DNA of 64,000 nt, taken from assembly GCF_019649055.1 (NCBI RefSeq), contig NW_026570225.1, positions 1,736,001-1,800,000 on the forward strand, in the 5' to 3' direction. Source of the DNA: Paramacrobiotus metropolitanus. Lineage: Eukaryota; Tardigrada; Eutardigrada; Parachela; Macrobiotidae. The notes under the pieces were generated by a model that did not search any database, had not been told where the DNA came from, and saw only the letters and a list, made by a program, of their open reading frames with translations. Shown here piece by piece: positions 2,926 through 58,988 of this stretch (the first letter of the stretch is position 1; every line of letters begins with the position of its first letter). A program made the translations under genes and the position numbers.

Positions 2926-3117
2926 GAACTAAAGTTTTGAAGCTTAGTTAGGAGTAAAAATGGAGGTGGGATCGGGTTTATCAGGCGAAGTTTTTCACAG
3001 GAGAAGGTATTAAGTTTCGGAAACCTAGTAAGGACAAAGGCGTAAAAGCACAGGTTTAAAGAGCTGCAAAAGCTTAAAAGTTGTTAGGCGGGTTCTGGCA
3101 AATCAGAAACGTAAGGT

Positions 3118-3190
3118 CTTTTCTGGCCAATCAGGAAACGTTGAAGACGGGAGCGTCACGGAATCACGGCTCTGGTTTAATATATAGGAT
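3118..3190. repeat. Direct-repeat partner of the segment at 464-535
   Basis: CTGGCCAATCAG, then a short GAAGACGGG-like element, then TCTGGTTTAATATA occurs here; a similar order occurs at 464-535 (GGCCAATCAG, GGAGGCGGG, TCTGCTTTAATATA). The minisatellite is thus bracketed by two related direct repeats ending in a TATA-like stretch. No LTR hallmarks (TG...CA ends, primer-binding site, polypurine tract) or polymerase ORF were seen between them. Confidence 0.5.
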
Positions 3191-21592: not shown

Positions 21593-23834
21593 GTTAATTG
21601 AAAACGCACGATTTGTGGTGGGGATCGAGCGGAGCTCGCGATCCCCGTTGATGGGGGAGTGATACATGAGTTGTTGCCGGTACACAAAGTACGTGCCTGG
21701 CTAATTACGTGCCTGTTTAAACGGACAAAATCGTGTATGCAGTGTTATGCGATCGGCGAGATGGGTCGGTGCATGGCCGCCTGTAATAAGCGTTAGATCA
21801 TCGGCATACTGAACTAGCTTGTTTTCCCTAGCTTTGTATAATATGAGATCAGTTGAGGAATTCTTCGGCGTATTATTAAGTATGTACAGATCTAGTTAGA
21901 GAATTTAGACAGAGGCGGTGAACGATCGTGATTGTTTGTTTTTCTGATGTTTAGAGAAGAATCCACTTCTTTTCAATGTCCTCTTGCTGCTTCTCGAGTG
22001 TATAAATAAATGCACCGTTAAGAGATGTATCATACCGGTACCTTTCAAGAAATTCAGCGCGCGTACTATCAATCGTCGATGCTCCAATTACCCATCAAAT
22101 CTGCACCTTCGCCAGTTGCAGGCAGCATGAATTGCGTCTTTTCTCGACACATTCCGCTTCGTTTTTCTGTCAAATACGATTAATATAACATAGTATTCAG
22201 CTGGAATTTTTTCGTCTGGCGTAGTAGTACCGTAAAAGTGATAAAACCGTTGTAGTACCGGTAGGTTGATCCGTATGTTTATGGTAGCCAGCATATTGTA
22301 TCAATGCATAAACAACCAGTTTCGCAAGACCCGCCAACCAAAAGATGGCTATTGTACGTGCCATGCTTTGTTGTTGGTGTTAGAGGTGATCTGATGTAAT
22401 TCTCACGGTCTGCCTTGGCGCCAGTCAAAATATTTTAGTGGTACTTAAACTTGGCCAATGGTCTTGAATTGTTCACCAACTTATCTGCTACGAGCAATAC
22501 AGTACTTTACAGATACAGTTAATTTTGAGGCACACTGTCTGCATTAAGTGCGTTCCTATTCTTGTTTTTGTCTGTGTTCGCGCAAGCCGAACATAAAACC
22601 GAAAAACTATCACAAAAAATTTACATCAATTTCCTATTTGTTATGACGATGATCTTTTTATCAATCTAATGGAAAGGTTAAATGCGAGTACGTTACTGTC
22701 ATAGTATGACCTTTTCCAGTTACTATATTGACCTTTTTAATAATAAATGCAAGCGCTGGGACACTACTTGATAGTTAGAATTTTAAACTTTAAAAATTAT
22801 ATTGCAAGCTGTGTGCTACCTTCTAAAGTTCTACGCTTTCGAATACCGTATACATGCATACCGTAATTGTAATTAAGGGTTCCTTATGTACATGATGGTT
22901 ATAAATATATGGACGGACACTGAGCGGAAAAACAAAATTGCCGATACTTTTTAACGTCCATTTTGACTAGCGTTTTAATGTTCATCCGTACCTGTTCATC
23001 TGTGCTCACTGCTTACATAGGGCATTCCAGGTAGTATAATTACTTATAGACCTATTTTTTGACTTGGAGATCACATACAGTGTATCTGGGGTCACAAAAT
23101 CCTTACACAATTGGATGATTTCTAGCTAACTTTGCTCATCCAGTAAATCTATGCAGGAAAGTACAAAGGAAAGGCATTTTTGAGAAATAATAATAAATTA
23201 TACTTGCAATCTGACAACGGTTACGGTAGCTGGATGTTTATATACTGTAATCGGAGTGGCGAACACATTTTCCAAATACTGGATACCTTTGACATTAGTT
23301 TTCTATGGAAAACTGTGGCTGCTTGTATAAATATGAGTGCTGCTAGAATGCGTACCCTACCACAGTATTCGACTCTGAAATGCCGAACAGTTTCGCACCT
23401 GTAGGTCTACAATCAGCTCAGAAGAAAACGATTACTTGTTATCCACCACCAGAAACGTGTTCGATTGAATCGATTCATAAAGTTTTTACATATGAAAAAC
23501 ATCCCATGTACTGGACTATACTCGATGACTATCCGACAAAACTGAAGACCTTAGTCGGCGACGAAAAACTGTTAGCGTTCTGTGCATCTTTATTAATCTG
23601 GCTGGTTACGAGACAGCAACAAAAATTTAGCATTCGCTTTGGCACAAATGTCACAATCTGGGATAAAAAGCACAAGCCGTAGGAGCAACGCAGAACGGAT
23701 TAATCGAAATTGTTAAGCGTCAGTCTGTTCGTTATCAAAATAACTTTTACGACTATTGCAGCGCAGAACGTTCGCTATCGGCTAACGATACGATATCCTC
23801 TTCTTCTTCTTCCACTCTTCGTACAGTTCTGCAA
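21593..23834. other. Convergent intergenic region, no gene seen
   Basis: This stretch lies between the stop of the PTB-domain gene (+) and the stop of the repeat-module gene (-). It must contain both 3' UTRs. Open frames are under about 120 codons and show no domain. The TTTATT at about 23585-23590 is AATAAA on the minus strand, about 250 bp beyond the minus-strand stop. Confidence 0.5.
22005..22010 (+). terminator. Candidate polyadenylation signal of the PTB-domain gene
   Basis: AATAAA on the + strand, 413 bp after the stop codon. It is an AT-rich region, so this could be chance; transcript 3' ends would settle it. Confidence 0.35.
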
Positions 23835-26800
23835 TCAACAGTTAATTAATGTATGTATTAATGTGTGCAAGGAGAAAGGTTCGGAGAAAATAACCGCGGC
23901 GCACCTCGTTGTCGTGGTTTCCTCAATAATTGCATCCGACAGGCTCCACGTGTCATCATCCGCGCGACCTTTGAATTTCTCGAGGATTTTATCGGGTGAA
24001 TCTTCGATCTGCATTAGAATGTCACCCTCCACAGGGATGTCTTCCTCTCTAACGGCAACCTCCCTCCACTGACCATCAATCAGTTTCCGAACGACAGTGC
24101 GCTTCGTGCGTTTCGTTTCCGGCGAAACAGCATCTCCACGCCTAGAAAACCGCCAAAATCAACAACACTATAACAGCACAACGGAAACCTGGCATTCCAT
24201 TACCTCGCAAACGATGTATCTCTGGTTTCTTCTTCCGCTCCATCCGTCCGTCGTAATGTCCGGCTGGTTTTTTCCAGCTCTTCTAGACTAACCGCATCAC
24301 CCAGATTCTTCCGCTTCAGCTGCCCATAAGCTGCACTTCCCCCTCGTCGACTCCCCGACAAACTAGGCAGACTCTGCGACATACTGGCGTACGCTTCCAG
24401 GTTAGACTGAACGGCCGACGTCCCGCTCTCTTTCATGGCTTGGTCGCTGTGGAAACGGCTCTCTTCAATGGTCTCCTTCGTTTCCGTTGCATGCCGCTTA
24501 TAACTCTTCATTCCTTCCGTCTCCTCGCTGTGGCCGAGGGCAGCGGCGGATAGCTGTAACGTATCCCACTTCCGTAAAGGCGACGTATCGGCTGCGGTGC
24601 GCCGACGTTGATTGTTCTTTTCGATGGCACGTTCCAGTGCGGCTTCCAGCGGTGTTTCCTCCGGGAGATTGCCTAAATGTCGTTTCACAGGCACATCTCG
24701 GGCGTACATGGTGGACTTCTTTCTTTCTTCGGCGATGCGCACCCATTCCGGCTTGTCGTCTTCGGGTTCCGCTGTGTAAGCGGGCACCGTACGATGCGGC
24801 GCAGCAACGGATGTGACACGACGCCGTCCTTCTTGTGACGCCTCCGAGTAGCTGCGCTGCGACTCACTGCTTTTTTGGGTGACGGTAGTTTCCGTTTCCA
24901 TTCCAATTGGACGATATCTTGCTTCACGGCTCAACGGTCGTGTGGATAATTCCCGTTCCAACTCATTGGCTGCTTCTTCGAATTCTCTGAACACCCCGCT
25001 CTCGTCCGACCCTCGGCGTCTGCCAGAAACATCGCGAAACATGGATCCGCCTTGTGTTTCTACAATTTCTCGTTCTTGACGAATCCGCGCGGTGGTTTCA
25101 GTAATTCGTTCGTACACTTCCGCCTCTGGGGATAACACCTGCCCAGCGACTTCCTGTCGCTCATCTTTCTTCAGCGTGAAAATCTTTTCAGGATACTGTT
25201 TATTTTGGAGAATATCGCGTTCCATAGATGAGCGTAACTTGTCCGGACTGCCGGGTTTCTTCCACGGCGAATCCCTGGACGGTTCAGGCAGTTCCCTCAC
25301 CGCTGACATCGGGGTTGTCTCGCGCGAATACCCACCCGGGGTGGCCATTACCGGTGTTGGTGTAACCGGCGGCGTGGACCAGGGCGGTGTGGCCGACATG
25401 GTTTTGACGCTCTCGGGTGGTGAGCGTTTGCGTGACTCCGCATACATTTCCAGCGGGCCACCATGGCCGTCGTGTCGCTTATGAATCTCCGAGCCGTCCA
25501 GCGTCGCGTGGTAGGTGAAACCGTATGTACCCATCTCGGCGGACATAGGCGACCCGTGTCCGTCGACCTGTGCTTCGTAGACAAACCCCGAATACTCGGT
25601 TAAGGGCGGACTAGGCTGCTGTGGACTAGCGGAATACTGGAATCCCCCGGTGGCCGGCGAGAATGTGCGGGCCGTCGGTGGGGAGGGGGCCATGTACATC
25701 TGGCTTTTGATTCGAGGTTTGACGTTCATACTGATGGCCGACACTTCTAGATCCATGAACTCTTCGTCAATGGCCAAGTGTTGTTCCGCTAACCATTTCT
25801 TCTCGTCTGGAAGTATCACATCCTTCTCCTTTAAAATCCCCCCTAGAAATATCACACCGGTTGCAAAACAATCACGGTAGTTACCCTTTTTTAATAAAGC
25901 ATGCGTGCTCAAGCAAAGCAAAAGTGTGCAGAAATAATGGTGCAAAATTTCGATATCCCGCATTCCCTTCCGCTCCCAAAGCGTTCTGCCCCCAATAAGT
26001 GCTCTTCCCTGCGGTGATAAATACCCGCATGAGATCTAGAGTTTCATCCTTCCCATCACCTCCTCCCAACCGCGCCTGCATCTCCTGTAATGTCGGTCGT
26101 CGACCTTTCCCTTCGCTGATCACTGTCGACCGGCGTTTGGCCGGTCGCGTGACTTTTATTTCCTCTACTGGTTCTGGAACGAACGTTCCCCTCGTCGAAC
26201 CGAATATATCGTCATCTAATTCGCCACCGCTAAAAATATCAGGAGAAAACAGCGGCGAACGGACCTCTGGCTCCGGTTCCTTGGGCGGTGGCGGGGGTTC
26301 TGGTTTGGGGGGTTCGGGTTCAACAGGGGGTAGTGGTGGCGGAGGCGGTTCGGCAATGACAACTTTTTTGGCCGGTTTTGTTTTGGGCTTCTTTTTATCA
26401 CGCGGATCCAGAGAGGGTAGATAGGATCTGTCGCCCATAGCTTCCTCTTTACGTATTCGTGCCATCGAAGCAGGAGACAGCGAAGCCCGCGCAGCCTTTC
26501 GGCGATTTTCCCATCTAATCCTTTTTAATTTTCTAATTTTGGCCTCCAGCAAAACCGATTCCCAGCGAGGATCAAGTTTGCCACTATCGCCATGAAAACC
26601 AAAGGGAGACGGGTTCCGCGATCCGGGAAGGCTCATACTGAATGTCACATCCCGTTCAATCTTATTCAGATGTTTGGTAAACTGTAATTCCGCTTCCTCC
26701 CCATCACTCTCGTCCTTGGACGACACATTTTCATCATCGAAATCCCGTTTGTGTAATAGACCGATATATGCCCCGATTCGTTCGCGTTCTTCGTACGTGT

Positions 26801-29800
26801 AAACACCTTGAAAAGTGGACGGATACAACGTCTGACCTTCTTCGTCGGAGCTGCTGTCTAGGCCAGAATCTTTATAGGCCAACAGTCGATTCGTAAGGGA
26901 GCGCCTCTTCCGTGCGTAATGAACTAGCTCGGCGAAATCAACTGGGAAAAATAGATTAGCAACATGCATCAAGGACTAGTAGATCAGTTAGTATATGGCC
27001 ATTAAGCATTAGAAGCCAAATTCGAAATACAACAGTTTCCCGTTGAAGGCCTTACCATGCCCGATATGGCGTTCGCCCTGGGTGCCCACTTGTAAGTGAC
27101 GCGTCTCATCCAGCCATTCCGGATGCGGTCCTTCATAATCACCAGGACGCCGAGGATGATCGGGCACATCAAACTGGGAGGCATCACGGTAAACGCGATC
27201 CTTGCGCTGCTCCGAGCTGGTGCGCTCCCATATGCCTCGTTCATTGATGCGGCCGTACGTCTCGTGCTCTTCTAGGCGTGACATACGTGACCCATGGGTA
27301 GACTGCTCGAAACGTTCTATCATCGCTTCGGTCTGAGATTTCTTGGAGGCGGGGAAGATTTCTCGAAGTGCGAAAAGTAGCTGACGTTGCTGTTCCGATG
27401 TTAGTGGAGGACTGACCTACAACAAATGATACCCATTTTAGCGCCAATACGCTAATGGTCGTGCAATTAATTCCATTTCAAACATATTTATACACAAACT
27501 ATGGTAATCGTTAAAAAACAATGAAAAGTTCGTTTTTGCTAAACTGTTAGTGCGGTCCACTGCATTACAAATCACATACAATGTAAGGAAAGTGCGTCGG
27601 AAAGTAAACAATACTTACTTGGGTCATAGCATAGATTAACTGCTTCTCCAACCTGGATGTCAGCGTGAAAATATCGGAGCTGGCCGTCAGTAGTTGTTGT
27701 TGCTGTCGAGTGGTCAACGGTGGAATGATCAGATCGCTTCCGGTTAGTAGCTGTCGCTGCTGACGCACAGTCATCGGCGGCAGAAGCTGTACCAGCACAT
27801 TAAGGATTCTGCGTTGCTGTTGCTCGGTTAAGCGGGGGAAAATGTCACGGCTGGCAATAAGGAGCTGGTGCTGTTGTTTATGGGTCAGCGGCGGTTGAAT
27901 GTCGGCGAAGGCAGCCAACATTGCGTGTTCGACATCCAGCTCGATGGAAGTGATATCGACGTCCCGGAGATTGATATCCAAAGACTGGAATTCAGCGGCC
28001 TCATCTGGTTTAACATGTGTTATGTACAAAAAGCCGAATGTTCCCAGCGCTTTCGGCTGATAAGCTGTGGCTGTTAATTCCTGCGAAAAAAGCGGAAATA
28101 CTGTTGAAAAATAATAAAAAATTATTGTGTGACCTTTGCCCAAAATGCACATTTCAAGGTTAGTCATATATTGTACCGCAAGTGGACAAGTAATTAAACA
28201 TTTACCTGCAAAATCTGAGCAATTTTTGAAGGGGCTGGGAACAAGCGGTTAATACCGTTCAAAAACTGCTGCTGTTGGGACACACTGAGGGGCGGATAGA
28301 TATTCTCAACCACATGCACCAATTCTAATTCATCCCTAACTGACATAGGGACAATTCCCGCGCTGGCTCGCAGCAACTGCTCTTGTTGCTGATTGGTCAA
28401 AGGCGGTGAAATATCATTTCCACCCAACAACTGATGTAGCTGCAGCGGCGACAGAGGCGGGTGCACTTCGAATAGCGCCTTTAACAGTTTCTGCTGCTGG
28501 CTTTCTTCCAGTACCGGTATCAACTTGACAGCCGCGTTGAACAGTTCTTCTTCCTGTTGGACACTCAACGCCGGTTGAATCTCGTCTAGTACACTGAGTA
28601 CCGCTTTTTTAGCATCGAGTTCGATCGTGCGAAAGTCGATTTCCGTCATGTTAACAGGGCGACCACTGACCAACGCCAAGGAATCCACATGGGCCATGTA
28701 CAGGTATCCGTACACACCCAGGGCGCGTGATAACTGCGGCGTAGCCGGACGATGTCTTGAATCGGCGGAACGAGCTCGAGGTGTCCGTCGCCCGGTTGTG
28801 AATGGTGCTGGGACCCGATCCAGCTAACAAACGAGAATATTCAGCTTATACAATACAAAGAAGCTGATCAATGCACACGAAAAAAATGATGTATAGTTAA
28901 TGTTTATCAATATTTCATAAATGGTTTTTCAATAATGCCATAATCCTAAAATGACACGGAAAGCAAAATCGGGAACTATTGCCAATTAGACAATGGCGAT
29001 ATTTAAACTGTACAACACTTAAGCAGAATAAGTAGAAAAACTGCCATCAGATAATTGACTGATTAGTCAATTACCTTCAAAATTTCCATTACTCTTTCCA
29101 GTGTGGGGAACAGCATGCTGATGGCATGCTTGTACTGCTTCTGTTGTGAGGGCGTTAATTTCGGGTATGCATTCGCTGCGATGTAGTCCAGTGTCCGTTC
29201 TTGCTCTTCCGTAATTGACAGGATTTCGGCGCTGGCAATTAAAAGAAGTTCCCGCTGTTCCTCTGTTAACGGTGGGGAGACTTTTCTCCCCGCTAGGATC
29301 TGCTGCATCTGCATGTTGGTCAGGTCAGGCGTAATTAATGAAAGAACATTAAGGATTTGTTTTTGTTGAGTCTGGGTCAGCTCGGAGAACACTTCCACCG
29401 TAGCGTCGAACAATTCGGTGATCTGGTTAGTGGATAATGCCGGTTGGATGTCCGACAAAGCGGAGAGAACGGCTTTTCGAATATCCAGTTGAATACTGGA
29501 TGCATTAACTGTGTCCGGACTGAATGGACGCGACGAGTGTGCATCTACGTGGGTAGTATACAGGAACCCGTACAGTCCAATCGGTGGCTGCTGGGACATC
29601 GTAGAGGTAGTTGTTTCAGTTCGTGAAGTGTACTTGTTATTGACTGATCGATCAATCTGTGAGAATACAAAAATAAATCAGTATACAAATTTTCTGTCAC
29701 TGTATTCACGGGAGGACCGTTCAACAAATTTTGAGAGCAAAAATTACTAACAATAAGCGATGCGCCGATCAGTGGTGATCAGTAGCCTGTTGGTTTGCAA

Positions 29801-31493
29801 GGAGAAGACTAACAGAAAGTACCGGTCTCCTTGGCCTACCTGAATTAACTCGCGGGCATTCTGCAGATTAGGAAACAGCAGACTAATTGCCCTGACGTAT
29901 TGCTTCTGCTGGTCAACGGTCAATCTGGGATACACATTGGCCGCAATGTACTCTAGTGCATCTTCTTGTTCTCCCGTGACCGCAAATACTTCTGTGCTTC
30001 CTATCAACAATGCTTCCCTCTGTTCTGCGGTGAGCGGCGGCACCACAGTCTCGCCATGTAGAATCTGCTGTTGTTGCGTCGGCGTCAGAGCCGGCACGAT
30101 CCGCGAAAGCACACTGAGTGTCTGGCGTTGTTGGATGGTGTTCAGTTCCGTTAGCGTCTCTACCGTTGCACCAAAGAGTTCCGAAATTTGCTGTGGTAAC
30201 AGGGGCGGGTGAACTTCGGAAAGTGCCGACATGACGGCTTTCCGAATGTCCAGACGAATGGAGGAAGAGTCGAAAATCTCCAGTCGAAACGGACGGGTGG
30301 TATGAGCGTCAACGTGAGTGGTGTAAAGGTAACCGTAAATACCCAGCGCCAATGGCTGGGGACGGGAAGTGGGAGACGGAGTGACGCCGGTGTGGACGGT
30401 GTGTCTCTTCCGGCGAAGATCTTCGCTGACTTCTTGCGAACGACTCGTCTACAAAGAAAACAACTAAAATATTTTTCTGTTTTAGTTACTGCGAAAATGT
30501 TCTGAGAAAACCCTAGCATCTGCATTAGTACGTAAGGTGCAGTAAATAAATAGCAATAAGTTTGACACTAGTTTATGGCAATTACTATTTAAAGCGGCAC
30601 ACATCCTCGGGCCGGTGGTGACTGTACCTCGATTATTTGCTGTACAGTCTCCAGCGTCGGGAATAGCATAGTAATCGCCCACATAAACTGCTTCTGCTGC
30701 GACTCCGTCAGTCGTGGCTGCACATTAGCCCCAACGTATTCAAGCGCCTGTCGCTGTTCTCTGGTCAAAATAAAGGTTTCCGCGCTGGACACCAACAGTG
30801 TTTCCTTCTGTTCCCACGTCAGTCCCGGTACGATTTCGCTGCCCGTTAACAACTGCTGCATCTGGGAAATGCTGAGCGGCGGGTGAACATGTGATAGCGC
30901 GTGCCGTATGTCGCGCTGCTGGGTCACATTCAATGTACCGATAATCTCCACTGCGGTGGTGAACAGTTCGGTTGTCTGCTGAGTGGAGAGTGGGGGTTGG
31001 ATGTGCGATAGGGCGGATAGGACGGCTTTCCGGATGTCCAGCTGGATGGTCGAGGTGTCTAGTTTCTCCACAGAAAAGTGCCGCGTGGTCGTATCTACGG
31101 TGCTCGTGTAGAGGAAACCGTAAATTCCCAATGCCGGGAGAGGTGGCTGAACCGTTGGAGCAGGATGGACTTCGGTGCGAGAAGTTTGCTTTCGCCGGTG
31201 AACGGTGGTGGTTTCTTCGGTGCGGCGTAGTTGTTCCAGCTGAAAAAGTTTTATGACAGCGCAGTCAATATTTTTGTACTATTAAAGAGGTAAAATACTA
31301 GAGCAGGTAAAACACCTGCATAGAAACCTTTGGACACTTCAAATTCGCCAAGTAAAAACACTAATAAAATAAATAGGAAAAAACTCAGCAGTTAACCACT
31401 TACGCGGTCACTAACTATGTCTTCATAGCCATCGCTAATATTCATGATGGTTTCACCATAGTCGCCGTATACGATATCAATTCGAGTCACCAT
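23835..31493 (-). CDS. Repeat-module protein, distal half (gene B), about 2,060 aa
   Basis: Exons, in transcript order: 31493-31404 (starts MVTRIDIVYGDYGETIMN), 31239-30628, 30448-29840, 29656-29075, 28823-28206, 28080-27619, 27416-27056, 26941-26025, about 25828-24204, 24141-23835. All phases fit; the 26025/25828 junction is the least certain because several acceptors work. The protein has five 200-residue modules (G-x-Y-G-F-L-Y signature plus six 19-residue P-P-L-T-x-x-Q-Q repeats). Next come a charged Arg/Glu-rich segment, a Pro-rich segment with runs such as PPPPPLPPVEPEPPKPEPP, and a Ser/Arg-rich disordered region with two more signature peptides (YSGFVYEAQVDG, GTYGFTYHATLDG). It ends in a tail beginning KRTKRTVVRKLIDGQWREV. 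No signal peptide, transmembrane segment or catalytic motif was seen. I do not recognise the family. The first exon has no acceptor before its ATG, so it looks like a true or alternative start. The second exon could also be spliced from gene A (both ends phase 0), making one gene. Confidence 0.7.
26025..26941 (-). other. Charged and Pro-rich exon of gene B
   Basis: This is the phase-1-in exon after module 8. It begins VDFAELVHYARKRRS, then an acidic patch (SSSDEEGQT) and KIRKLKRIRWENRRKAA, a predicted basic helix. Then comes a proline-glutamate tract of about 45 residues (VEPEPPKPEPPPPPKEPEPE). It ends near LQEMQARLGGG. The composition suggests a flexible spacer. The donor is taken as the GTATTT after 26025; an alternative GTGATG donor about 35 nt earlier also works. 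Confidence 0.6.
27619..28080 (-). repeat. Repeat module 8, split by an intron
   Basis: This 154-codon exon has LGTFGFLYITHVKPD and five repeats (for example PPLTHKQQHQLLIASRDIF, PPLTTRQQQQLLTASSDIF). The sixth repeat (PPLTSEQQRQLLFALREIF) lies at the start of the next exon (27416-27056). Module 8 is thus the only one interrupted by an intron, and it leads into the non-repeat C-terminal part. Confidence 0.88.
28206..28823 (-). repeat. Repeat module 7 (206 codons)
   Basis: Phase-0 exon with a basic linker (FTTGRRTPRARSADSRH), signature LGVYGYLYMAHVDSL and repeats such as PALSVQQEEELFNAAVKLI and PPLTNQQQEQLLRASAGIV. It ends PSKIAQILQ at a GTAAAT donor. Confidence 0.9.
29075..29656 (-). repeat. 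Repeat module 6 (194 codons)
   Basis: Phase-0 exon with IGLYGFLYTTHVDAH, IQLDIRKAVLSALSDIQ and repeats including PPLTEEQRELLLIASAEIL and PKLTPSQQKQYKHAISMLF. It has the shortest linker before the signature of the complete modules. Confidence 0.9.
29840..30448 (-). repeat. Repeat module 5 (203 codons)
   Basis: Phase-0 exon with LGIYGYLYTTHVDAH, IRLDIRKAVMSALSEVH and six repeats including PPLTAEQREALLIGSTEVF and PRLTVDQQKQYVRAISLLF. Closest relative is module 6. Confidence 0.9.
30628..31239 (-). repeat. Repeat module 4 (204 codons)
   Basis: Phase-0 exon with LGIYGFLYTSTVDTT, then IQLDIRKAVLSALSHIQ and six repeats such as PPLSTQQTTELFTTAVEII and PRLTESQQKQFMWAITMLF. Modules 4, 5 and 6 resemble each other more than they do modules 1-3 (shared QLDIRKAVLSALS and LEYIAAN-like stretches). 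Confidence 0.9.
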
Positions 31494-32277
31494 TGTTCCA
31501 TAAAAAATCAACGTTTGCCCATATCTCTATAATACTCCACTGACTGCACTGATGCAAGATATTAGGTACCTATCCTTTATCAACCACCTAAAAACATCCC
31601 CACACCGCCTGACGGAAATGGCTGAGCACACAGACTGACGGTTTCCTGTAGTGGACTCTAGTCTATACAATTACGTGAGACGGCGCGCTATATTGGTTAA
31701 GCAGAGAAAATCTATTCATACCGCTGAGATAACAATAATGATCTTTTGTGATCATCATTTTCCAGCCCGATCCATATCCTCACAAACAAGACACCAGCAA
31801 AAACCCTTTTATATTCTCGTTTAGGAAAGGCCATCGCCAAACATTTCACCATTGTTGCTTTGTATTATGTAAGCCGCACGTGCATAATCGCTACCGAAGA
31901 GACTGAAGGCGAAGACCACTTCAGCCGGGCCAGACCGGTTTGAAAACTGTTTACGGAAGGCATTTAACTCAGGTGTTAATAGGATTTCCGTCCGCCATAT
32001 AATGGTTTTTGCGGGTCTCATAAATTATTATTGAATTTGGGTGTCATTATGATTAAAAATATCTTAGACACTCATGATACCCATGCAAAATTAATGTGTG
32101 CTAAAACCTAAAATGAATGAAATCCTGTCTGTGCACCGCGGTATACTCAAGCGTATTTCGAAAAATCTGCTCGTATTTGGTAGGATGGCAGAGCACAACG
32201 GAAAACGTAAAGTTGTCTGCCCGCTTTAAAAATCGATCATAATATTTTTATTGTATTATGAGTAAACTAATCTAATT

Positions 32278-35200
32278 TCACAGTTTCACCAGGTAGAAAT
32301 ATGATGTCACCCCAAAATAAAATATTAAAAGCAGACAGAATAAATTCTGACTTACCCGTATCATCCGCTCCGCTTTCTCCGGCGAGGGGAACAACCCCGT
32401 AACATGTTCAACGATCTGTTCCTTCTGTTCAGCTGTCAGTTCAGGTTTAATATTGACCATGCTATATAATAACTTCCGCTCCTGCTCGATCGTAATCGAG
32501 ACAATCCTGGCACTGGCCAACAGTAGCTGGCTCTCCTGTTCTACCGTTAACGCTTCAGTAATCTCCTCTTTTCCGCTCAGAATTTCCACCTGCTGCTGCG
32601 CCGTCAGTGGCGGAACAATATCCGAAATGGCCCGCAATAATCTTTCCTGCTGTTCGTCTCGTAACGGCTCGAAAACCAGGTCGGTGGCCACAACCAGCTG
32701 TTCTATTTGTTCGCGCGTAAGAGGTGGGTGGACGTGAGCAGCAGCTGTGCGAACGACGTGGTGGAAGTCCAGTTCGATGTAGGTAGAGTCCATGGTGCGG
32801 ATATTGATCGGTTCTCCCCGCAAGGCTGATTCGGCTTTGTGGTCAACATGCGTAAGGTAGAGAAAACCGTATGTGCCGGTGGGATGCAGAATGGGGAGGG
32901 TGCTGGATGGGCGGATGTGGTCAGTCGTCACATGCTTAACAGGACGCTTAGAGGGTTGGGGAAGAGGGGCTATTTCTACATCTTCCAACTACAACATTTC
33001 CAGTTACAAATTATGCCGCAAGTCATTTTAAACGATAACCGAAAACTTTTTTGCTAAAAATAAGCAATTCTTGAATGTAAATAACATCTTCTTTTCAAGG
33101 TAGTCAATATTGTAGCAGCCGAATTAACCACATTTTTCACCCAAAACAGTGACGGTAAAAAAATTTCTAAAGTATATCACCAAAGCCATTCTCCGTTAGT
33201 AAAGCTATTTTAAAACCCTTCAAACGCATGGAATTTCGAAATTAATAAGCAAAAGAGTTCCAGCACTAATTAGCATTGCAAGTGCCAGAAAGCGTGAGAT
33301 TACAGTGGCTTATTAGGGGGCAATTAAATTAAGTAAAAACAATCGGAACCAGGCTTTATTTTCACACAAACCTCCACATAATAAGTACTTTTGTATATGT
33401 ACTCTTTCAGCTCTTTGATTACACAAAAGAAATTGAAACGCACCTGTATTAACTGTTCCACTCTCTCCGGTGGCGGGAAAAATTCTTCCAGACTATTCAG
33501 AAGTTGCAGCTGCTGTTCCGGCGACAACGGCGGGACAATCCTCGTTGACGCTCTCAGCAGCATTTTTTCTTGATGTTCCGTGATTGTTATGATCTCAGCA
33601 CTAGCAATCATCAACTGCCGCTGCTGCCCAGGGGTCAACGGCGGATGGATCTCCTCATCCAAAAATAGCTGCTCCTGTTGTCTGACTGTTAAGGGTGGAC
33701 GAATCTCTGTCAGAACATCCAGCAATCGTCGCTGTTGCGTAACAGTCAACGGTGGAAAGACCTCACTGGCGGTGGTAATTAGCTGTTGCTCTTGTTCCAT
33801 GGTAAGAGCTGGCTGGATATGACTAACAGCCGACAATAGCACTTGCTGGACATCCAGGTCGATGGATTTAATGGTGACTTCGATGGGCTGGCCGGGCTGT
33901 TCGCGAGCTGGTTTAGCGGGTTGTACGTGCGTGACGTACAGGAATCCATAGGTGCCCAGTTCTTTTGGCAACGTCTGACCGGTGGGGGCCAGCTCCAGCT
34001 TACCACTCCATGTTTTACGGGGAATGCGCCAAGAGGGCGTGGGAAGGGTCGGCTGTGGCGGTTGTGGAAACTCCAGCTGAAAGCGTTATGTTCAAGTATT
34101 ACAAGTTAAGCAAACAACTACTGAGGAAATACAATGAAGAGTATCAAACACATTTTTTAAAAATATACTAAACTCTTCTAGCTGATTAATTAATTAAGTA
34201 CTTCACTAACATTGTAAAGCGTACTTTTTGTGAAACTATCGAGTCTACTATTAACATTATTAATTTCTTGTCCAACAATAACTTTTTGTGTTTTCCAGAA
34301 GTAGTAATTGTTTGGTACAAAACATTAAGCATGTAACAAAGAATTTGTAATTCGAAGAAGGCAGGCAACTTTTTCGAAAATACTGCAAGATGGCATAATT
34401 TTCTAAATGTGGACGTATGTGTTCTAGTGTACACTGTACAGTGTAATTCGCTGACACCGCACCTCGATATCCTTTACGGCCCTTTGAGCGGGAAAAACCT
34501 CGGCAATGGCAGATAACAACTGCCGTTGTTGCTCCGGCGCCAACGGTGGAACAATTTCCACACTTGCCCGAACCACCTGTCGCTGCTGTTCAACGGTAAA
34601 TGTCGGTACAATTTCCGCAGTAGCAATGGATAACTGCACATGCTGTTCCCGTGTCAGAGCCGGCACCACTTCTTCCGCGCCCGTCAGCAACTGGTATTGT
34701 TGTTGCGGGGTCAGTGGTGGCACAATCTCCACCATGGCGTTCAGGAGGCTCTGCTGTTGACCTTCCGTTAAGGGCGGGAAAACTTCGGCCGTTGCAGTGA
34801 GCAGCTGTTCTTGTTGTGTTATCGTTAAAGGCGGCTGGATTTCGGAAAAGGCGGCAAGCAAGACTTGTTGGACATCTAGCTCGATGTAGTTCAATTCCGT
34901 TTCGCGAACAATCTGGGATGTTTCGTATGCTTCTTGAATCACAATCGACTGAGTGGGAGGCAATAGTTTGGGCTCTAGTGTGGCAATGTAAAGAAAACCG
35001 TAGGTAGCGACTGATTTGGGCAGTGGCTTTCCTGTCGGTTCCGGGGTCACCTTTTCGCTTCCCGTTAACTTTGGAATACGACCAGAGACTGGAGGCGGTC
35101 GGACCGGTGGAATAGGAGGCTTCTTTAACTATATAAGGACAAAATTATTCGGTGACCAACCCTTGAAGCGTGCCCAGGAAGTCAGTGACTGAAATGAATG

Positions 35201-38200
35201 ATTAAATCCATGAAATTCATACCTGTAGTTTTGCTTCGGCCCTTTGCGGTCGACGCAGCGGTGTCCGCTGGTAGCTCGACTTCCAGCGCTCTTCTTCTTC
35301 AGCAGTCAGACCGAGTTCGGTATGATGAGTTGGTACGGCTGTAATATTGTTTGCTTATCAAATGATTTGATAAACGAAAAGAAAAGCCAACCACGTAACC
35401 AAGAACTAACGAAATTTAATTCCACATCCCAAAAAAATGCAGTTAAATACTATGCACTGTTCGATTAGCCTTAAACAAAATATAAAAGAGATAGCAAAGA
35501 TTTACCTTCGGCAATAATTTTTCGAATCATTTCGCTGATTTGATTCTTCAACGGTGGCGGAGGTGGCAAGACGACCTTCTCAGTGCTTTCCACTCGTTTC
35601 TTATCTTCCACACGGCTGCGTACGTGTTCGTCCCGGACCTGCGTTGTCGTAACGGTTTCCTTTTTGGGTTTCGTAACCTTTTTCTCCACCGTCTCCTGCA
35701 CGCTCAGCCGTTCTTCTTCATCCTCCCCGAAATAATAGCGCGGTGTAACGTCGGCATGAGTCGGCACCACGGGTGGCTTTTTCACCGGTCGCACTTCTTT
35801 GGGCGGTGACACCTCCACCGCCGCCGTAACCCTGGTCGGCGTAATGATTTCGGTGTTGGCGGTCAATTCCGGATGGCGCGGAGGTGATACCGCGCGCGGC
35901 TCACCAAAGCTGGACTCACTCTCGGAAATCTCCTCCACCACCGCACCTTCTCGGACATACCAGTCGATCTTCTCCACAAGTTCTTCCCTGACTTCCGTAG
36001 GGGTTTCGATTATGTGGAAATCAATGGCTTTTTCTCGTTCAGGTGTTTTCGCATCCAGAGTCGCCTGATAAACATAACCATATGTTCCCAGAGAATGCGG
36101 CAGAGGCTGTCCAGTTGGTTCCGGCACTATCGTCTCCAAATTAACGTGTTTCTCGACGCGACCGGAAGTGGGCGGTAGTTTCGCAGGTGGAGGCCCTTTC
36201 ACCTGAAAATCATCTATTAAACTATCGAATTTTAATATTGAGGCCTATTTTTATTTCATACTTCGACATGTTCTTCGACGCGTTCTCGCTTCTCATGTGG
36301 AGTATAATCAACAGTGGTCTCGTAGATGCGTTTGGGAATGGGCACCAAATCAACTTCGGTGTGGTGCGCTTCGGTGGCTGAAAATAAATACGTCAATAAA
36401 ACAAGCTGTTGTGCCCTGCAGACTGCAAGCAATTGGGGCTTACCATCTATAGCAGTAGTCAGTGATGTTCGCCGCGGAAGAGGTGGTACCACCTCAGTCT
36501 TGGCTTCCAAGAATGTCGGCGTCTGAATTTCCACATCGGCGGTGATCTTGGGAGGCGACTCCCTTACCTCCACGATTCTCTCTAATACATCCACTCTCCT
36601 CATATCTTCCCGCGTGAAAATTGGCCGCTGCGGCGGTGGCAAAACGACTCGTTTCATTTCTTCTACCCTGACATCTTCTTCGTAGTGATAGTGATCGTCC
36701 GGCATGGGTCGAGTGTGTTGTACAACCTGTTGCATAACACGCACATCCTCCCGCACCTGGGTGACGGTTTCTTCTCGCAACGGTGCCGGCGAAGGAGTGA
36801 TGAATTGCCGGTATTCATCGACACGCAGGTCCTCCGCATACTGTTGCGTATATTCCGGAACCGGTTCAATGGGCTGTCTTCGATATTGCTCGATTTGACG
36901 CACGTCTTCTCTGACCCTTGTGGTAACTGTTTCCTCTCGCAGTGGTGCCGGTGAGGGCGTGATGATCTCCCGCAGTTCCTCCAGTCGCGTATCTTCTTCG
37001 TAATGCTGAGAATATTCCGGAACCGGCTCCAGCACTGTTCTCCTCACCTCCTCCGTCGTTTTCACATCCTCCACGGTGCGCGAATAGCGCGGTACAATTT
37101 CCGGCGTGATAATCGTGGAATCGGAGATAACCGACACCGGTCGCGGTGAAGGAGCTTTAATCAGCGGCTCCTCCAGTCCGAAAGTCACAGCCACCGGCAA
37201 CTCGGCCGGGACCACTCGCGTTTCTTCAAAGGTGATTTTTTCGATTGGTATCGGCTCAACTGGAGGCAGCGGCTCAATGCCTAGTGTCAAGCTCACATCT
37301 CTAGTGACTTCTCGATCTTCGTGGAAAGTCACCTTTTCGGCTTGCGCCACAGGTAGCGGCTGCATGCCCAACGTGAGACTAACATCCCGTGTTATCTCCC
37401 GATCTTCCCGGAACATCATTTTGTCAACTGGCTGACGATAAATATCTTCTCGCACTTCTTTTCTCTCATAGATCTCCGTCCGTTCGGCTGTCCGCTTGTG
37501 CCGTTCCTGCTCCTGCTGCAAGCCGATGACAAAGTTCACATCATGCTCGCGCTTGATTTCCTCTTCAAAATGGAACTTATACGCAGGCAACGGGGCACGG
37601 GATGTCACCACATCCTGTTGGGTGTCGATGGCCAGTTTCACCGAGACATCCCGTCGCGGTGCTTCACGGATTTCATCAAACACAAACTTATCCTCCCGCA
37701 CCGTGGTCTCCGTCGTGGTACGTGCCTGGTGCGCCATGCCCAGTGTCAGTGAAACATCATGTAACCTTTCGCGGGTCTCTTCGAAGGTGATCTTCTCCGA
37801 GGGCTGCTGCTGCGCTCCCTGCCAGGTGTACTCTCGTGTCTCTTTACCGACACCGGGCACATCGTAACTGATGGTGATCTGCCGTTGATTCTCGCGAGTC
37901 TCTTGGTAGGTCACTTTCTCAGACGCCGATTTCTTGTAACCTTTCGTGTCGGTTACTCGCGTAAAGCCGGTACGAGCAGCTTTGTCGCTTTGGTGCACCA
38001 ATGTCTCCTCGTCGGTTACGGCCACAGGGAAGGGCCTGTCCGTAGGCTCCGTAACGATACCGTGGACGGGTTCTTGTTCGCCGTTAACGGTAATGAGCGT
38101 ACTGCCACTAGGGACAGTTACGATCTCCTCGATGCGCGGAGTGGGGCTTTTGGCGCTCGGGCGAACGTAATGGAGGTGTCTGCATTGATAGGTAATCTTA

Positions 38201-41200
38201 AAACAGTGGTGGCTAAGATAGGCAATACGTACTCCTGTTTTTTAAAGAAAACATTCTTTAAAGAAATCAAAAACAACAAGACGGCTTAAAATTAACTAAA
38301 AGCGAAGTTTTAGAAGTATTTTTATCATGTGCGACTGCGAATCAAGTTAATGTTATACAATATAGAAGTACTACGTACGGAAACAGCTTTCGCACCTCAT
38401 TACACTAGTACTGCCGATGCCGCGGTACAACTGTCAAGAAAATTTAACCAAAATTATCTGCGCTATGGCTAAAAATCGCTTTTCTAAAAGATTAAATAAT
38501 TTAATTTCTTTTTTTTCGTATGAGTAGCTTACGTTTCTCCAGAGAAATGTTGATCAATATTGTGTACCCAGTCCGGTTTGCGCGACGTGTCAACATAATT
38601 CACCAGCACTTGCTGGTCACGGGTCATCTGCTGCTGTTTAACGGAAGCCGTCTGCAATGTGCCAAATCAAACTAATAAATACATGCATCCCGCCATTAGG
38701 AATTATGGATAAGTAAATGTTCCGCATACCCGCGTTTTATTGGCGTGTGTCTGCGTCTGCTGGCGGGTAAAGTGCGATTGTGTCATGTTGGTCGGCAATG
38801 TAATATCCGAGGTACTCAAAACATCATCCGGTGCGTTTTCTATGGGAAGCAGTAAAATCAAACCCTCCATCGCCAAACAATTATAATATGCTTACAAATT
38901 TAAAAAAAAATGGAATTAACAAAAAATAAATACAAATTACACGAAAATTCGGAAACGACAGCAATCAAAATAATGGTGCGAGTTATTTACGCGCCAGTCA
39001 AACGCAGAAGAAACAATTTTTCGTTAGTTTTCAAAATGACAGCAGAACTTATGCTGTGCTAACCGGCCTACTCCGTACTAATCTTTGCAGTTATAAAACA
39101 GCTGACGGAGTAGAAAATTCATGAAAGCGCGCAGATGAGTGAGAAAGCGGAAGATGGTCGAATAAATACTGGCTACGTAATATTACGCATGCAACAGGTA
39201 ATACCGGTGGTGTGGTGTGACATATGGAGCATGCGAGAGATTTGCTCTTGTAACATCCACGCGACAAATTATCCGATGTGTATTTGCACAGAAAGATGTA
39301 CACCAATTGACTAATCAGTCCACCTACCATCGCCAAAATGATGCTTGACAGGATTACGCGACGGTGGCCGACGCAAACCCATACTGCCACCTTGCGCCAA
39401 GTTACCACGGTCCCGCAGGATGCGATTATCCAGCAAATGCTCTCCAGGCTACCAAAAAGCGTTCAGTGTAATTATTTATTTCAGTTTTACAATTTCCATA
39501 AAGAGAATGAGGCGCAATACGCGAGCAAAATTCTGATAACTAAACACCCTAGCTGTCACCAAACACCAAGACTAAATTAAGATGATTCTGTTAAAAGGTA
39601 CATAACGAATACCGGTACAAATGAATCATATGATAATATGTTTTCTTCTTACGGTAATTTTATAAGTAATGCCGGTATCAGATCCACATTTATGTATCAC
39701 AGTATCGTACAGACGAAGAGACATAAATATACACTGATACCTATACGAACACATGCACTGAGCATACCGAGTTGTTTTCTAATGGTATAAACCGCTCTTT
39801 AGTCTATACATGAATGTACAAGCCCGTTTTCAAACCTATAGACCGCTGTAAGCGGGATATTTGAAAAACGTGGGCTTGAGCCATTCAAGGTGATTCGGCA
39901 CATCACGGCGTATTGGTCGTTAACGCCACTGCTAACATATTTTCGTCTGGGAAACGATTAGGTATAAAGTAATCAACAGAGCTTCATAACTCCAGATTCG
40001 GTAACCGGCATCTGCTTTAAAATACTTGCCCTTATACTGCTCTGAAACAATGCTATGCAGTAATTCAGACGTTCCAGTAATTAACCTGTATTATTTCGCA
40101 AGAGATCAACGAGGCTGCCAAAATGATTAATAAAAATTACCAAAAATAGCCTGGCAGTTAGTTTTTCTAACCGTCACCTGCGTCCGTTAACACACAGCCC
40201 ACATGTCCATTTCGACACACAGCGTGCAATTAGCCATCTGAATTACCGTCACATCAATCAAACACCATTTCAAAAATCATTAAATTCCTGAATTGATTAT
40301 CATGAACATTTCCTGCATTCCGACCTGTTGGATAACCATAAAACGTCTAGGATGCGTGCAGCACAAGCACCGTAACAATGGCATCGCAAAACGCGCGCCG
40401 CCACAGAATGATTGATAAATGTATGTAACTGCACTTCACACCTACGGGAAAAAGTGCACTGCGATATTGTATACCTTGATATCGGATAAATCGACACTCG
40501 ATGATCGTGAACTCTGGCCGTGTGTTGTATCCGCACCGGTCACACCAACAGGAATGATCCGCTCCTACACAATATACCATCGTCATAAATCAAACAACAT
40601 CCGCGCGCTATTTCATTGCTCACGTTTCATCAAGTCTAACATATCGCTGGCGTCATCTATTTGTAAAATTTCTGTATTATTTCCAAATTACTGTTAATTT
40701 CTGCATTATCAACACATGCCTTCTGACAGTTTTATAAAGGGTAAGTACTGCAGAAGTCATTTATGGTTGTTACGATCGCATAAACTTTGACTCCACAATA
40801 CAATTATAAGATTCTTAATTTCTTACTTTGTTTTTTAACAAACGAGATGCCGAAAGATAATAATTTTCAAGCGACCAAGGCATTTACATAACACTTAAAT
40901 GAAAAGCATTTAAATTCTCTAGACTACACAGATAAAAATAACAATCAAATTCAAATTGGGATGAGTCTAAGCGTAAAAACATGTAAAAACATCTCGTCTC
41001 CATGTTCAAATATTATCAGTTATTGCCAACAAGCCTATGAATACCTAGACTTTGTCAGTCTGTTAAAACGAGTAAATTACCCACATACATACCTTGACGG
41101 TAGTCCGCTCAGATTGCCACTCCGTCGTTTGTTGATCCGCACTGTGGTCCTGTGGCCCCACCACACGATACCGGTCATCAATGGTCACCCGCTCGTGCCG

Positions 41201-44200
41201 GCTCTTCCGTTCCTGTGACGGCGTCGGACTCTTTCCATCCGCTGTCGCATCCACATTGATATCCGTACCCACCATGGTATTGCGTGTGCTGTAATCTTCC
41301 CGCCTAGTAGTCTGACTGGTCTTTTCCACGGTGTACGGCAGCGGTGTATCGTAATAATTTTCCTCGACGGTTTCCTTAATCACTTCTTGGGTTTGACTGA
41401 CTGGACGTGGCGGGACACGCACGCGATGGTATTCTTCGATATCCGTCCGTTCAGTGTTCTCCACAATCGATTCGCGCGGCACAACCGCCTGCCGTGCTTC
41501 TTTCCGGTTTTCAGCCTGACTGGACAGATTCCTCACTTCCACTGTTTCTTCGCGAGTTTCTGTCGCAACTTGACGATTGTCCACCCGGGGCAGAATTCGA
41601 TAATAATCTTCCGTAATGGATTTTTCAATTGTTTCCTCCGTATGATCACGTTTTTGTTTAGTCGAGGGTATAAACGGACTTTTCACTGTATCGACTCGTT
41701 CAATACGTTCATCCCGTGTTTCGGTGGTGTGGCTCTTCTTGGACACAGGACGCACCCGATAATATTCCTCTACGTTAGTTTCCTCTGTATTCTGTTGAAA
41801 CGCTTTTTTCTGTTCCGATGGATAGGGAGCCAGATCAGTTTGGATAATTGTCCGCGTCTCGCTCTGCTCTTCATCAGTTCGTGTCGACGCCGGTTTCCTT
41901 TGCGACGGTGCCACACGATAGTACTCCTCAATGTTCGTTGTCTCGATATTCTCCTCGACTTTTTCTTCCGGCTGACGATACCGGGGGAACACACTTTGTT
42001 TAACGTCTGTTGTGGCGCTTTTCTCTTCGGTTGTTATTTGTGTCGGTGGAAAGCGGTAACGGTCTTCCACCGTAGTTTTTTCTATATTTTCCTCAGTTGT
42101 GCTTTTTTGAGCTGAACGAGACGGGGTCAAATTAGTTCCAACACGAGTGACTTCCTCGGTTCGCTCGTCTGTGCTGACCGCCGAGTGAAGTTCGGGGTGG
42201 ATGCGGTAATAATCCTCCGATACGGTTTTTTCAATGTCTTCCGTATGTGCTCGTCTGATTCCGTTGGGCCGATCGGTGCGGTACGGTTTCGGTGTTTGAT
42301 AATAATCTGTAGTTTCTTGGCGTGTTTCCTCGTTGTAAACGGAATCGTAGTCGCTTTCCTTGCGAGCCGGTTGTGACTGGTACCAGTGTTCGGCGACGTC
42401 GGTCCGTTCGGTCGTGTCCAAGCGGTCGTGTCGTTGATCTGGCTGGGATTTCTAAAAATATACCGACATAAGATTAATAAACACCGGTAAAAGATTGGTT
42501 TTGTCATTTTCGAATTCAAACACGATTACTACGAGTAGTAGACTTGAACAAAATGCCGCCCAGATCGAGCTAGCAAAACAATTAATTTATGACGAAGCTT
42601 ATCTTTCTCACCAAGAGATTCAAACGTTCCGACTGTGCCATAAAAATAATGCATAGTCCCGGAAATCATAAGGCTGTAGTTTATATAAATATTTCTAACG
42701 CAGCAAACCTTGCTAAGGTTTAACCTTATTGAAAGGGTTGATTCTCACGACTTTATATAAGATCCACCCCAAAAAGTGTCAAAATTTCCAATCAACCCCA
42801 AAATTTTCCACGAGTCTTTTAATCTGTCTCCGCTGTATGGGTTGGTTGTGGTACTTACTTTATTGGATAAGGATAATACGGATACTGTACGGATACATTT
42901 CATAGTTTCCCTACCGCCGAACTACGATACAGGCTACGATTTTATTTACGCACGTGTAAAATTGCAATCATAGTTTACCGGTAGCATCTGTGAACGCTTT
43001 TTCAGGCATCAGCCTATTTACGTTCTGTTTAATTCTTTTGCAGATTCAGATGCTCGATACCAAAACTTAATGGGAAACCCCAATCACCGTGTATCGAATC
43101 ACCAGCATCCAGCTTAAGCTTACCAACCTGATATTGGGCTTCCAGCAAATCCTTTCGTTTCTCAGTTCTTTCGGTGAATTCCGAGTCAAAGTCACTTTGC
43201 CTTGAATCGACCCTCCCTTTACCCGGCTGAACCCGATAATAATCCTCCTCGGTGACCTTCTCGACCTTCTCCACCAGATTCCCTTTGTGATCCCGCCGCA
43301 GTTCCGTCTCCCCGTTGGTCGCCCCTTCGCCGTCCTTCAAGTGATCGGGATTCGGCGGGTAGGAGCACTTGAACTGACGATGATCAGTCTGAATGTCCTC
43401 ACCGGAATCGTAATACTCTGGCTCCGGTGGCTCTCGTTCCGTATAGTATCCGCGCCGGTTCTCAAAGGTGGTAGTCTTCCCGGCACGCCGGCCACTGCCG
43501 GTTGGTTTGTCGTCGGGATGGTAGCGATACTTATCCTCGACGTTGATGATTTCCACGTCTTCCGTGCGATGTTTCCGGTCTAAACTGTTGTAGGGACTGT
43601 CGTCGGGCGATTCAACAATGATGCCGTTCTCCTACGAAGCAAATGCAATCAATCGATAAATAAGTCACACATACCATGAAGAATGTTCTTTCTGGCACTT
43701 GAGAAAAATAAGATTGGTGAGGTAAGCAAATAACTGGGCCGGCGCTTCTAATGAGTCTGTGCGGTAATATGAAAATAGCATGACACATTCGCTTGGTCTG
43801 TTGTGTGTACATAAGAGCGGTTACTTCAACACATGCAGCTCTTATTTTTTCTAAATGCTGACGATGGCCACTCGCCAATGAAATGTTTACATTTTAATAT
43901 CAATCTGAAATTCAAATTTTTTCTTACGCGGATTGCTGTAGACTACGAGCCTGAGATTACCCTGCTATACTGAAAATGAAGATATCATATCGACAAACAT
44001 ATTTACGTGCATGCTACAGTACACTAAAAAGATTTCACTAACGATACAGTTCATGTAAGTATTTTTATCCATCCGTTTAAAACTGTTATTGCAATCCATA
44101 TATGTTGTAACTGTAAGCTGTTTGACTTCTAAATCCAGTGCAGAATAAGCTCTGCACTGTTTAAGATATATCAGCAGTGCCGATATTGGCCGATTAGCTT

Positions 44201-55265: not shown

Positions 55266-58988
<3,723 letters not shown>

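Follow-up and report, generated by a model that had tools for sequence, protein, structure and literature searches.

Spectrin and talin exemplify the giant modular proteins, scaffolds or linkers of the cytoskeleton, in which helical domains follow one another in tandem. Among sequence families, the nearest Pfam entry to the repeats considered here is DUF3106 (PF11304), a bacterial one-helix repeat of unknown function on which one open-access library yielded no paper. CAHS proteins are reported to form gels (PMC9592077, PMC10949331).

The window was a stretch of 64,000 nucleotides from the tardigrade Paramacrobiotus metropolitanus (contig NW_026570225.1, positions 1,736,001 to 1,800,000 of the forward strand). 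It carries a predicted gene resembling spectrin and talin in its serial helical domains and very long product, here with hydrophilic arms, but differing from them in that Pfam showed no domain of those types in the exons scanned. Searches of one open-access library, on tardigrade repeats, giant proteins, exon duplication, restricted genes, the cytoskeleton and disorder, turned up no account of the gene. The reading favoured here, with a probability of roughly 0.4, is that the single gene encodes a giant intracellular (cytoplasmic) scaffold in which eight helical beads on a string provide multivalent binding.

Module exons and repeat units

Eight consecutive module exons, all of phase 0-0 and 462-666 nt in length, run along the minus strand, which had not been named beforehand, from 35128 down to 27619, and a ninth exon completes module 8; together the nine encode the eight paralogous modules noted originally (Table 1). 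The boundaries are exact to the exon: 35128 directly follows an acceptor, and 27056 directly precedes a donor. With a second acceptor, 6 nt inward, the module 1 exon shortens to 660 nt, and the gene model chose this acceptor.

Table 1. Coordinates of the predicted gene, its module exons and related features within the window.
Feature	Coordinates	Strand	Length	Phase	Content	Basis
Predicted whole gene	23753..46475	-	31 exons, 4,661 residues		first exons uncertain	computed splice-and-codon model
Upstream exon	35506..36202	-			carries GTYGYVYQATLD signature, without helical units	
Module 1 exon	34463..35128	-	666 nt	0-0	six units, each exactly 19 residues	
Module 2 exon	33444..34076	-	633 nt	0-0	units of 19, 19, 18, 19, 18 and 19 residues	
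Module 3 exon	32356..32988	-	633 nt	0-0	six units	
Candidate alternative first exon	31404..31493	-	30 codons	0 into module 4	ATG-led, GTAAGT donor	inspection only
Module 4 exon	30628..31239	-	612 nt	0-0	six units	
Module 5 exon	29840..30448	-	609 nt	0-0	six units	
Module 6 exon	29075..29656	-	582 nt	0-0	six units	
Module 7 exon	28206..28823	-	618 nt	0-0	six units	
Module 8 first exon	27619..28080	-	462 nt	0-0	units 1-4 and most of unit 5	
Module 8 second exon	27056..27416	-	361 nt		end of unit 5, unit 6 (48th), hydrophilic tail	
Downstream exon	24204..25828	-			carries GTYGFTYHATLDG (Tyr codon at 25525), without helical units	

The expected layout of a lead helix followed by six one-helix units was supported, and the estimate of about 48 units became exactly 48 (8 x 6), with the joined units recovered letter for letter in the spliced translations of all eight modules. 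Six 19-residue repeats per module had been proposed; the number held in every module, but the length did not, being 19 residues in 36 units and 18 in the other 12. Module 1 is indeed an exact 6 x 19, and is the sole module of that pattern.

Ile, Val or Leu and then Pro-Pro precede the helix cap in the units. Unit position 3 is Leu in 41 of the 48, position 4 is Thr in 34 (Ser in 8 more) and position 7 is Gln in 46. When a 19-mer profile was trained on the units, it recovered 42 of them unaided; composition-shuffled modules, used as the control (200 shuffles), gave a mean of 0.68 matches and a maximum of 3. The six units that were missed are fifth units, lacking Pro-Pro and one residue shorter. 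The linkers between modules are rich in Pro and in charged residues.

The signature G-x-Y-G-F-L-Y-x-T-H-V-D, previously assigned to each module, was confirmed in its core, best written [YF]-G-[FY]-L-Y, while its T-H-V-D end is only partly kept. A second look-alike of the signature was seen by eye in the downstream exon of Table 1. When the genome was scanned with a DNA pattern encoding G-x-Y-G-[aromatic-type codon]-x-Y-x-[AT], 18 sites matched, of which 7 lie inside this gene. Since a control pattern matched 7 places, the 11 outside the gene are near chance; a few may be real, and wider occurrence of the signature elsewhere was rejected.

Divergence of the modules

Protein identity among the 28 module pairs was 35-59%. 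With module 8 taken minus its last unit, pS was 0.72-0.87 in 27 of these pairs and 0.62 in one (modules 3 and 8), and pN was 0.27-0.45. Because pS is near saturation between modules and pN is not, the exons are old coding sequence under purifying selection. Pseudogene exons were rejected on the open frames and on pS of 0.62-0.87 against pN, and an assembly artefact on the extent of protein divergence together with the near-saturated synonymous sites. In the module tree, modules 4-6 group with a support of 97 and are joined by module 7 with a support of 98, as expected under tandem exon duplication. The gene is single-copy in the assembly, one diverged fragment aside.

Units at the same position in different modules share identities of 0.43, 0.38, 0.46, 0.52, 0.30 and 0.46 (positions 1 to 6), and units at different positions 0.21-0.42. 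Within modules, unit identity is 49% in module 1 and 43% in module 8, but only 23% in modules 4-6.

Predicted fold

Models were built with AlphaFold2 from nine alignment rows, eight of them paralogues of one gene. On that basis, module 2 (33444-33959) was predicted as eight successive helices of 8 to 14 residues (pLDDT 82.5, pTM 0.72). Module 1 was modelled with a pLDDT of 67.9 and a pTM of 0.54, without strands and with its first 42 residues below 50. Only one of the two models shows the Tyr-Gly-Phe signature as a short strand. Each module is predicted to fold as eight short helices, namely a lead helix, the six units and a closing helix.

A search of the PDB with the module profile gave no match at E <= 10. 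Foldseek (PDB and BFVD) and VIA-align gave no confident fold among the families listed there, the best Foldseek E in the PDB being 0.63. Residues 268-352 of 6eqo_A, part of propionyl-CoA synthase, aligned by VIA-align with module 2 (Z 6.1, rmsd 3.0, 75 aligned) and module 1 (Z 6.9, rmsd 2.7, 74 aligned), and the best spidroin N-terminal domains were 9lki_D (Z 5.0, rmsd 4.0, 85 aligned) and 4fbs (Z 4.9, rmsd 5.0, 85 aligned); all these Z values lie under the level that VIA-align calls meaningful for helical models. Foldseek listed talin R3 at no better than chance level (E 1.8). Judged by their titles, the weak look-alikes are mostly compact bundles, with one synthetic solenoid.

A solenoid or elongated rod had originally been suggested, in which the six units of a module would stack regularly and the eight modules would form one long rod. 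In keeping with it, every unit contributes one helix at a spacing of 18-19 residues, modules 1 and 8 still retain identity between their units, and the synthetic alpha solenoid 9hnh is among the weak matches (Z 3.5, rmsd 4.5, 59 aligned). As worded, however, the suggestion was unsupported: the units are position-specific and not interchangeable, those within modules 4-6 share only 23% identity, the helices of the module 2 model vary in length, the linkers set the modules apart and the structural matches are mostly bundles. We consider a regular rod unlikely. As the units keep their position-specific character across modules, a closed eight-helix domain fits better than a uniform solenoid, and the sequence argues for each module being a specific domain of this kind.

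Comparison with known families

No repeat family had been named for these units beforehand. That stands in so far as none was clearly matched; a look-alike does exist in DUF3106, although the match is marginal. A strong match to a known solenoid family was sought with the eight module frames and none was over cut-off: HEAT, ARM, TPR, spectrin and talin were all absent at the Pfam cut-offs, and the only solenoid-type row was TPR_CAND1 in module 5 (12.7 bits, cut-off 32.8). EAD1 (PF19955, cut-off 24.2) scored 13.4-13.8 bits in three module frames and a summed 28.3 bits in the joined modules, where no single stretch passed the cut-off. The LTXXQ motif family (PF07813) gave no match at E <= 1 in the eight frames or the joined modules; the units nevertheless carry L-T-x-x-Q. 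An NCBIfam scan of the nine alignment rows touched six families by one or two rows each, with a best E of 0.0033.

DUF3106 shares with these units one helix per unit, an L-[ST]-x-x-Q-type cap at the helix start (L-[ST]-P-E-Q in DUF3106) and a near-equal spacing, and true kinship by shared descent or transfer was considered. The module 1 frame gave the best Pfam match (23.6 bits, E 7.6e-5; gathering cut-off 24.3 bits), the module 1 repeats alone scored 25.4 bits and the joined modules, in which related copies add up, 48.2 bits, while four shuffles and one reversed copy gave no match. The profile score was 43.1 (probability 91), whereas the highest score among 60 permutations was 16.2 in one set and 18.6 in another. 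However, although five of the eight module frames matched at E <= 1, none reached the cut-off. Ten bacterial members scored 87.9-147.5 bits, and seven of them also hit helix-cap families to which they are unrelated, with some 20-27 bits; the score of the present units, around the cut-off, is at the level of such generic helix-cap cross-matches. In the ten members the spacing is mostly 18 or multiples of it (some 15 or other values near the end), and Trp or Phe, without Pro-Pro before the Leu, stands ahead of the cap; the units described here are mostly 19 long and have Pro-Pro. With the module 1 repeats, scans of prokaryote and viral collections gave 253 and 28 pattern stretches, of which none was confirmed as a relative, and tblastn of phages and plasmids with module 2 gave no match. 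Membership of DUF3106 was rejected on the spacing and the residues before the cap, and kinship is very unlikely. The predicted helical domain is of a kind that goes unrecognised in the libraries searched.

In the tardigrade genome itself, DUF3106 gave three matches with E <= 1, all of them below the cut-off. Two are modules 2 and 6; the third, C69:544693-544953 (E 0.876), was dropped as a chance match, since no such units were seen in it and its frame resembles by eye a retroelement protein, with a coiled coil and an aspartic-protease-like motif.

The predicted gene and its product

The gene model, open across its 31 exons, was a custom splice-and-codon computation, trained partly on the module exons. 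Its start is weak, with an unusual donor and a 28-nt exon among the first exons, and the N-terminus is therefore insecure, as is the absence of a signal-peptide-like start, none having been seen by eye. The predicted protein contains 2 Cys in 4,661 residues, and its mean hydropathy is negative in every 100-residue block outside the modules and near zero in module blocks; the scarcity of Cys and the negative hydropathy fit an intracellular, partly unfolded protein. Where pieces of the gene's other exons were scanned with Pfam, no match reached E <= 0.01, and a PDB search with the C-terminal 340 residues gave a best E of 0.3. A COX1 search for a mitochondrial contig found none.

A tardigrade source and hydrophilic flanks poor in Cys would also suit a desiccation-protection protein forming gels or filaments like CAHS, but this gene has 31 exons and stands single in the genome bar a fragment, and AlphaFold2 gives the module ordered helices at fair confidence instead of disorder; this reading is very unlikely.

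Because the module exons are symmetric, they could be skipped in frame, and isoforms differing in bead number would result. A candidate alternative first exon lies ahead of module 4 (Table 1); an internal promoter there, a candidate from inspection alone, would yield a five-bead form. On the same strand TATAAAAG starts at 31813, also noted by inspection only.

Skippable exons, and tandem helical domains flanked by long arms in a giant protein, would also suit a mechanical ruler or spring, as in muscle or junction proteins, whose modules unfold singly under load or whose length is set by module number. None of the exons scanned matched an Ig, spectrin or other domain known to bear load, however, and the modules have diverged more than a pure ruler requires, which makes such a function quite improbable.

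Discussion

The scaffold reading is preferred. The protein would contain, eight times over, a helical domain of about 170 residues that had not been recognised before. Linkers rich in Pro and charged residues would join the copies, with long hydrophilic arms on either side of the bead region. The ancestral module probably arose through amplification of a one-helix unit, and the whole module exon would then have been duplicated in tandem. The modules may act as repeated binding beads, with which a single protein could bring together or crosslink numerous copies of its partner; the cytoskeleton and cell junctions are the most plausible sites. More tentative, and on balance doubtful, is the full form of this proposal: a lineage-restricted domain with a fold absent from the PDB, born from one 19-residue helix and multiplied to eight in the form of symmetric exons, would make up the multivalent core of an undescribed tardigrade scaffold, and exon skipping together with an internal promoter would tune the number of beads.

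If this is true, a folded domain has arisen by repetition of one short helix with successive stages still visible, as the higher unit identity in modules 1 and 8 than in modules 4-6 indicates, and the locus would offer a testable case of fold birth through repetition. The eight in-frame exons would ease isoform and knock-down tests. It would also add a giant scaffold, without a description found in the literature, to a tardigrade cell biology that is thinly mapped at the protein level.

Module exons and repeat units

Eight paralogous exons, nearly all phase 0-0 and of 460-670 nt, had been claimed in the original prediction; eight such exons, all phase 0-0, were found on the minus strand, with lengths for modules M1 to M8 of 666 (possibly 660), 633, 633, 612, 609, 582, 618 and 462 nt. 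For the M1 exon there are AG acceptors at both 35128 and 35122 (minus strand), 6 nt from each other, so the first two residues of the module may or may not be included. In each module a linker rich in Pro or charged residues is followed by the signature [YF]-G-[FY]-L-Y, a lead helix, six one-helix units and a closing helix; the core of the signature was as claimed, the longer wording G-x-Y-G-F-L-Y-x-T-H-V-D being narrower than the form found.

The joined unit letters are present in the spliced sequence of all eight modules. The expected total of 48 units was recovered, as was the exact 6 x 19 layout of module 1 (and of that module only); unit length is 19 residues in 36 units and, departing from the claim, 18 in the other 12. 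The consensus is P-P-L-T-x-x-Q-Q-x-Q-L-L-x-A-x-x-E-I-x, with Gln 7 in 46 of 48 units and hydrophobic residues at positions 3, 11, 12 and 18 in 88-100%; T-x-x-Q at the helix start resembles a capping box. A profile trained on these same units recovered 42 of the 48, and on shuffled modules (200 shuffles) gave a mean of 0.68 hits and a maximum of 3. The eight-module array is a real and unusual feature, well seen in the original prediction.

Features of the module array and its surroundings (window positions unless another contig is named)
Feature	Position	Strand	Remarks
Module exons M1-M8	35128 down to 27619	-	AG/GT borders, phase 0 on both sides
Ninth exon	27416-27056	-	Completes module 8
Candidate alternative first exon	31404-31493	-	In 1.1-kb intron before M4; ATG-led 30-codon frame
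540-residue frame	19970-21592	+	Tail to tail with giant gene
Polycystin channel exon, neighbour	53570-54172	+	PKD_channel, E 2.5e-17
Diverged fragment of module 3 exon, other contig (C65) of the same assembly	C65:581001-587500, about 2654-3178 of that piece	+	

Gene model and surroundings

A purpose-written splice-and-codon dynamic programme, whose training set included some of these exons, gave one frame of 31 exons and 4,661 residues (46475 to 23753, minus strand). The modules span from near residue 1988 and, with their tail, finish at residue 3710; the N-terminus is uncertain, since the exons at the start of the model are weak, with an unusual donor and one exon of 28 nt. The model contains two Cys. 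Mean hydropathy was negative in every 100-residue block outside the modules (-0.39 to -1.75) and ranged from -0.69 to +0.06 in module blocks. Pfam scanning of pieces outside the modules found no family at E <= 0.01. The signature was found 10 times in the window by six-frame search, always in this gene, and occurs without helical units in exons 35506-36202 and 24204-25828.

Further repeats were seen on the minus strand of the same gene: acidic-Tyr-Tyr-Arg motifs of the type E-[DE]-Y-Y-R-V-x-P at 41093-42451 and 43128-43631 (a loose pattern matched the model 8 times), and E-K-x-T-F-x-E-x-R followed by D-V-S-L-T-L-G in exon 36444-38179 (4 matches for the latter half), where the Pfam scan found no family.

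The 540-residue frame, which we take to resemble a PTB-domain protein, had no Pfam match at E <= 0.1, and neighbouring exons at about 55266-58074 (minus strand) resemble elongation factor 2 when judged by eye. A GC-rich minisatellite lies at 582-2921 (plus strand; 45-base unit, 52 copies, 80% matches), with a 15-residue repeat readable through part of it. Trehalose-phosphate synthase family matches were seen on three contigs of the assembly; PMC8277472, the source of the published Paramacrobiotus sp. TYO assembly, deals with trehalose synthesis genes.

Coding constraint and module history

Per-site synonymous differences (pS) were 0.72-0.87 in 27 of 28 module pairs and 0.62 in one, with replacement differences (pN) of 0.27-0.45 and protein identity of 35-59%, module 8 being used minus its last unit. 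The module exons are constrained coding sequence. The diverged C65 fragment, an open frame, matches 485 bases inside the M3 exon (76.5% of bases, 66% of 161 residues; dN 0.21, dS 0.79). A stretch immediately downstream of it shares 92.6% identity with a short-period repeat region of the window (11799-12023). When the genome was searched with module 2, and again with module 6, at least nine places were found each time, made up of the eight modules plus this fragment, with no further copy among the matches listed; the C-terminal part and part of exon 36444-38179 found only the giant gene among the matches listed. These copy counts are lower bounds.

Units at the same position (1-6) in different modules had identities of 0.43, 0.38, 0.46, 0.52, 0.30 and 0.46, against 0.21-0.42 for different positions, so the six units had largely diverged from one another by the time the modules were multiplied. 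Identity between units within a module was 49% in M1, 43% in M8, 39% in M2, 31% in M3, 30% in M7 and 23% in M4-M6. The module tree grouped M4-M6 (support 97), joined by M7 (98), and placed the C65 fragment with M3 (100); its deeper forks lacked resolution.

Likeness to DUF3106

The search for a known family led to DUF3106 (PF11304), a bacterial one-helix repeat, as a pattern match, with none of the eight module frames over its cut-off of 24.3 bits. It was the best Pfam match of module 1 (23.6 bits, E 7.6e-5); M6, M2, M5 and M8 scored 20.4, 18.9, 15.7 and 11.7 bits, and M3, M4 and M7 gave no match at E <= 1. The module 1 repeats alone scored 25.4 bits and all modules joined 48.2. EAD1 (PF19955) summed to 28.3 bits in the joined modules (cut-off 24.2), with no single stretch over the cut-off. 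Four shuffled and one reversed sequence gave no DUF3106 match. Profile comparison against ten DUF3106 proteins reached a score of 43.1, where two rounds of 60 permutations peaked at 16.2 and 18.6; the likeness is therefore real as a pattern. Common descent, which that score would favour, is nevertheless improbable: the ten members score 87.9-147.5 bits, are spaced mostly by 18 residues rather than 19, and carry Trp/Phe before the cap without Pro-Pro before Leu, and 7 of 10 show secondary matches of about 20-27 bits to unrelated helix-cap families. From these sequence comparisons, the likeness is read as convergence on a one-helix unit.

Predicted fold

Modelling of a module, as the original prediction had proposed, gave eight successive helices (AlphaFold2, nine-row input alignment). 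Module 2 (pLDDT 82.5, pTM 0.72) was modelled with strands at residues 7-14 and 28-35 and helices at 37-45, 54-67, 73-85, 92-99, 110-123, 128-138, 147-160 and 164-171. Module 1 (pLDDT 67.9, pTM 0.54) had the same helix order but lacked strands, and its pLDDT stayed under 50 over residues 1-42. The best Foldseek E values were 0.63 (PDB) and 0.36 (BFVD). VIA-align placed 6eqo_A first for modules 2 (Z 6.1, rmsd 3.0, 75 aligned) and 1 (Z 6.9, rmsd 2.7, 74 aligned), with spidroin N-terminal domains next (Z up to 5.0); by its own yardstick such Z values may reflect merely a common arrangement, and we therefore write of no recognised fold rather than of a new fold. Since the units are position-specific and the structural look-alikes mostly compact, we consider a closed eight-helix domain more likely than a uniform rod.

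Proposed role

The domains are repeated and constrained within one predicted gene, and each module is predicted to fold as a helical bead. Lineage-specific repeat proteins without an assigned role are common. Our tentative joint reading (probability about 0.4) is that the giant protein would stay intracellular as a scaffold, its eight beads binding multivalently, and that in-frame exon skipping would generate isoforms. A uniform rod is less probable than this reading, a mechanical ruler or spring slightly less so than the rod, and a drying protectant is improbable.

The candidate first exon before M4 ends at a GTAAGT donor that is in phase 0 with M4; 320 bases upstream of its ATG, at 31813 (minus strand), TATAAAAG begins. 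Together they mark a candidate internal promoter, which, if real, would yield a short isoform with modules 4-8.
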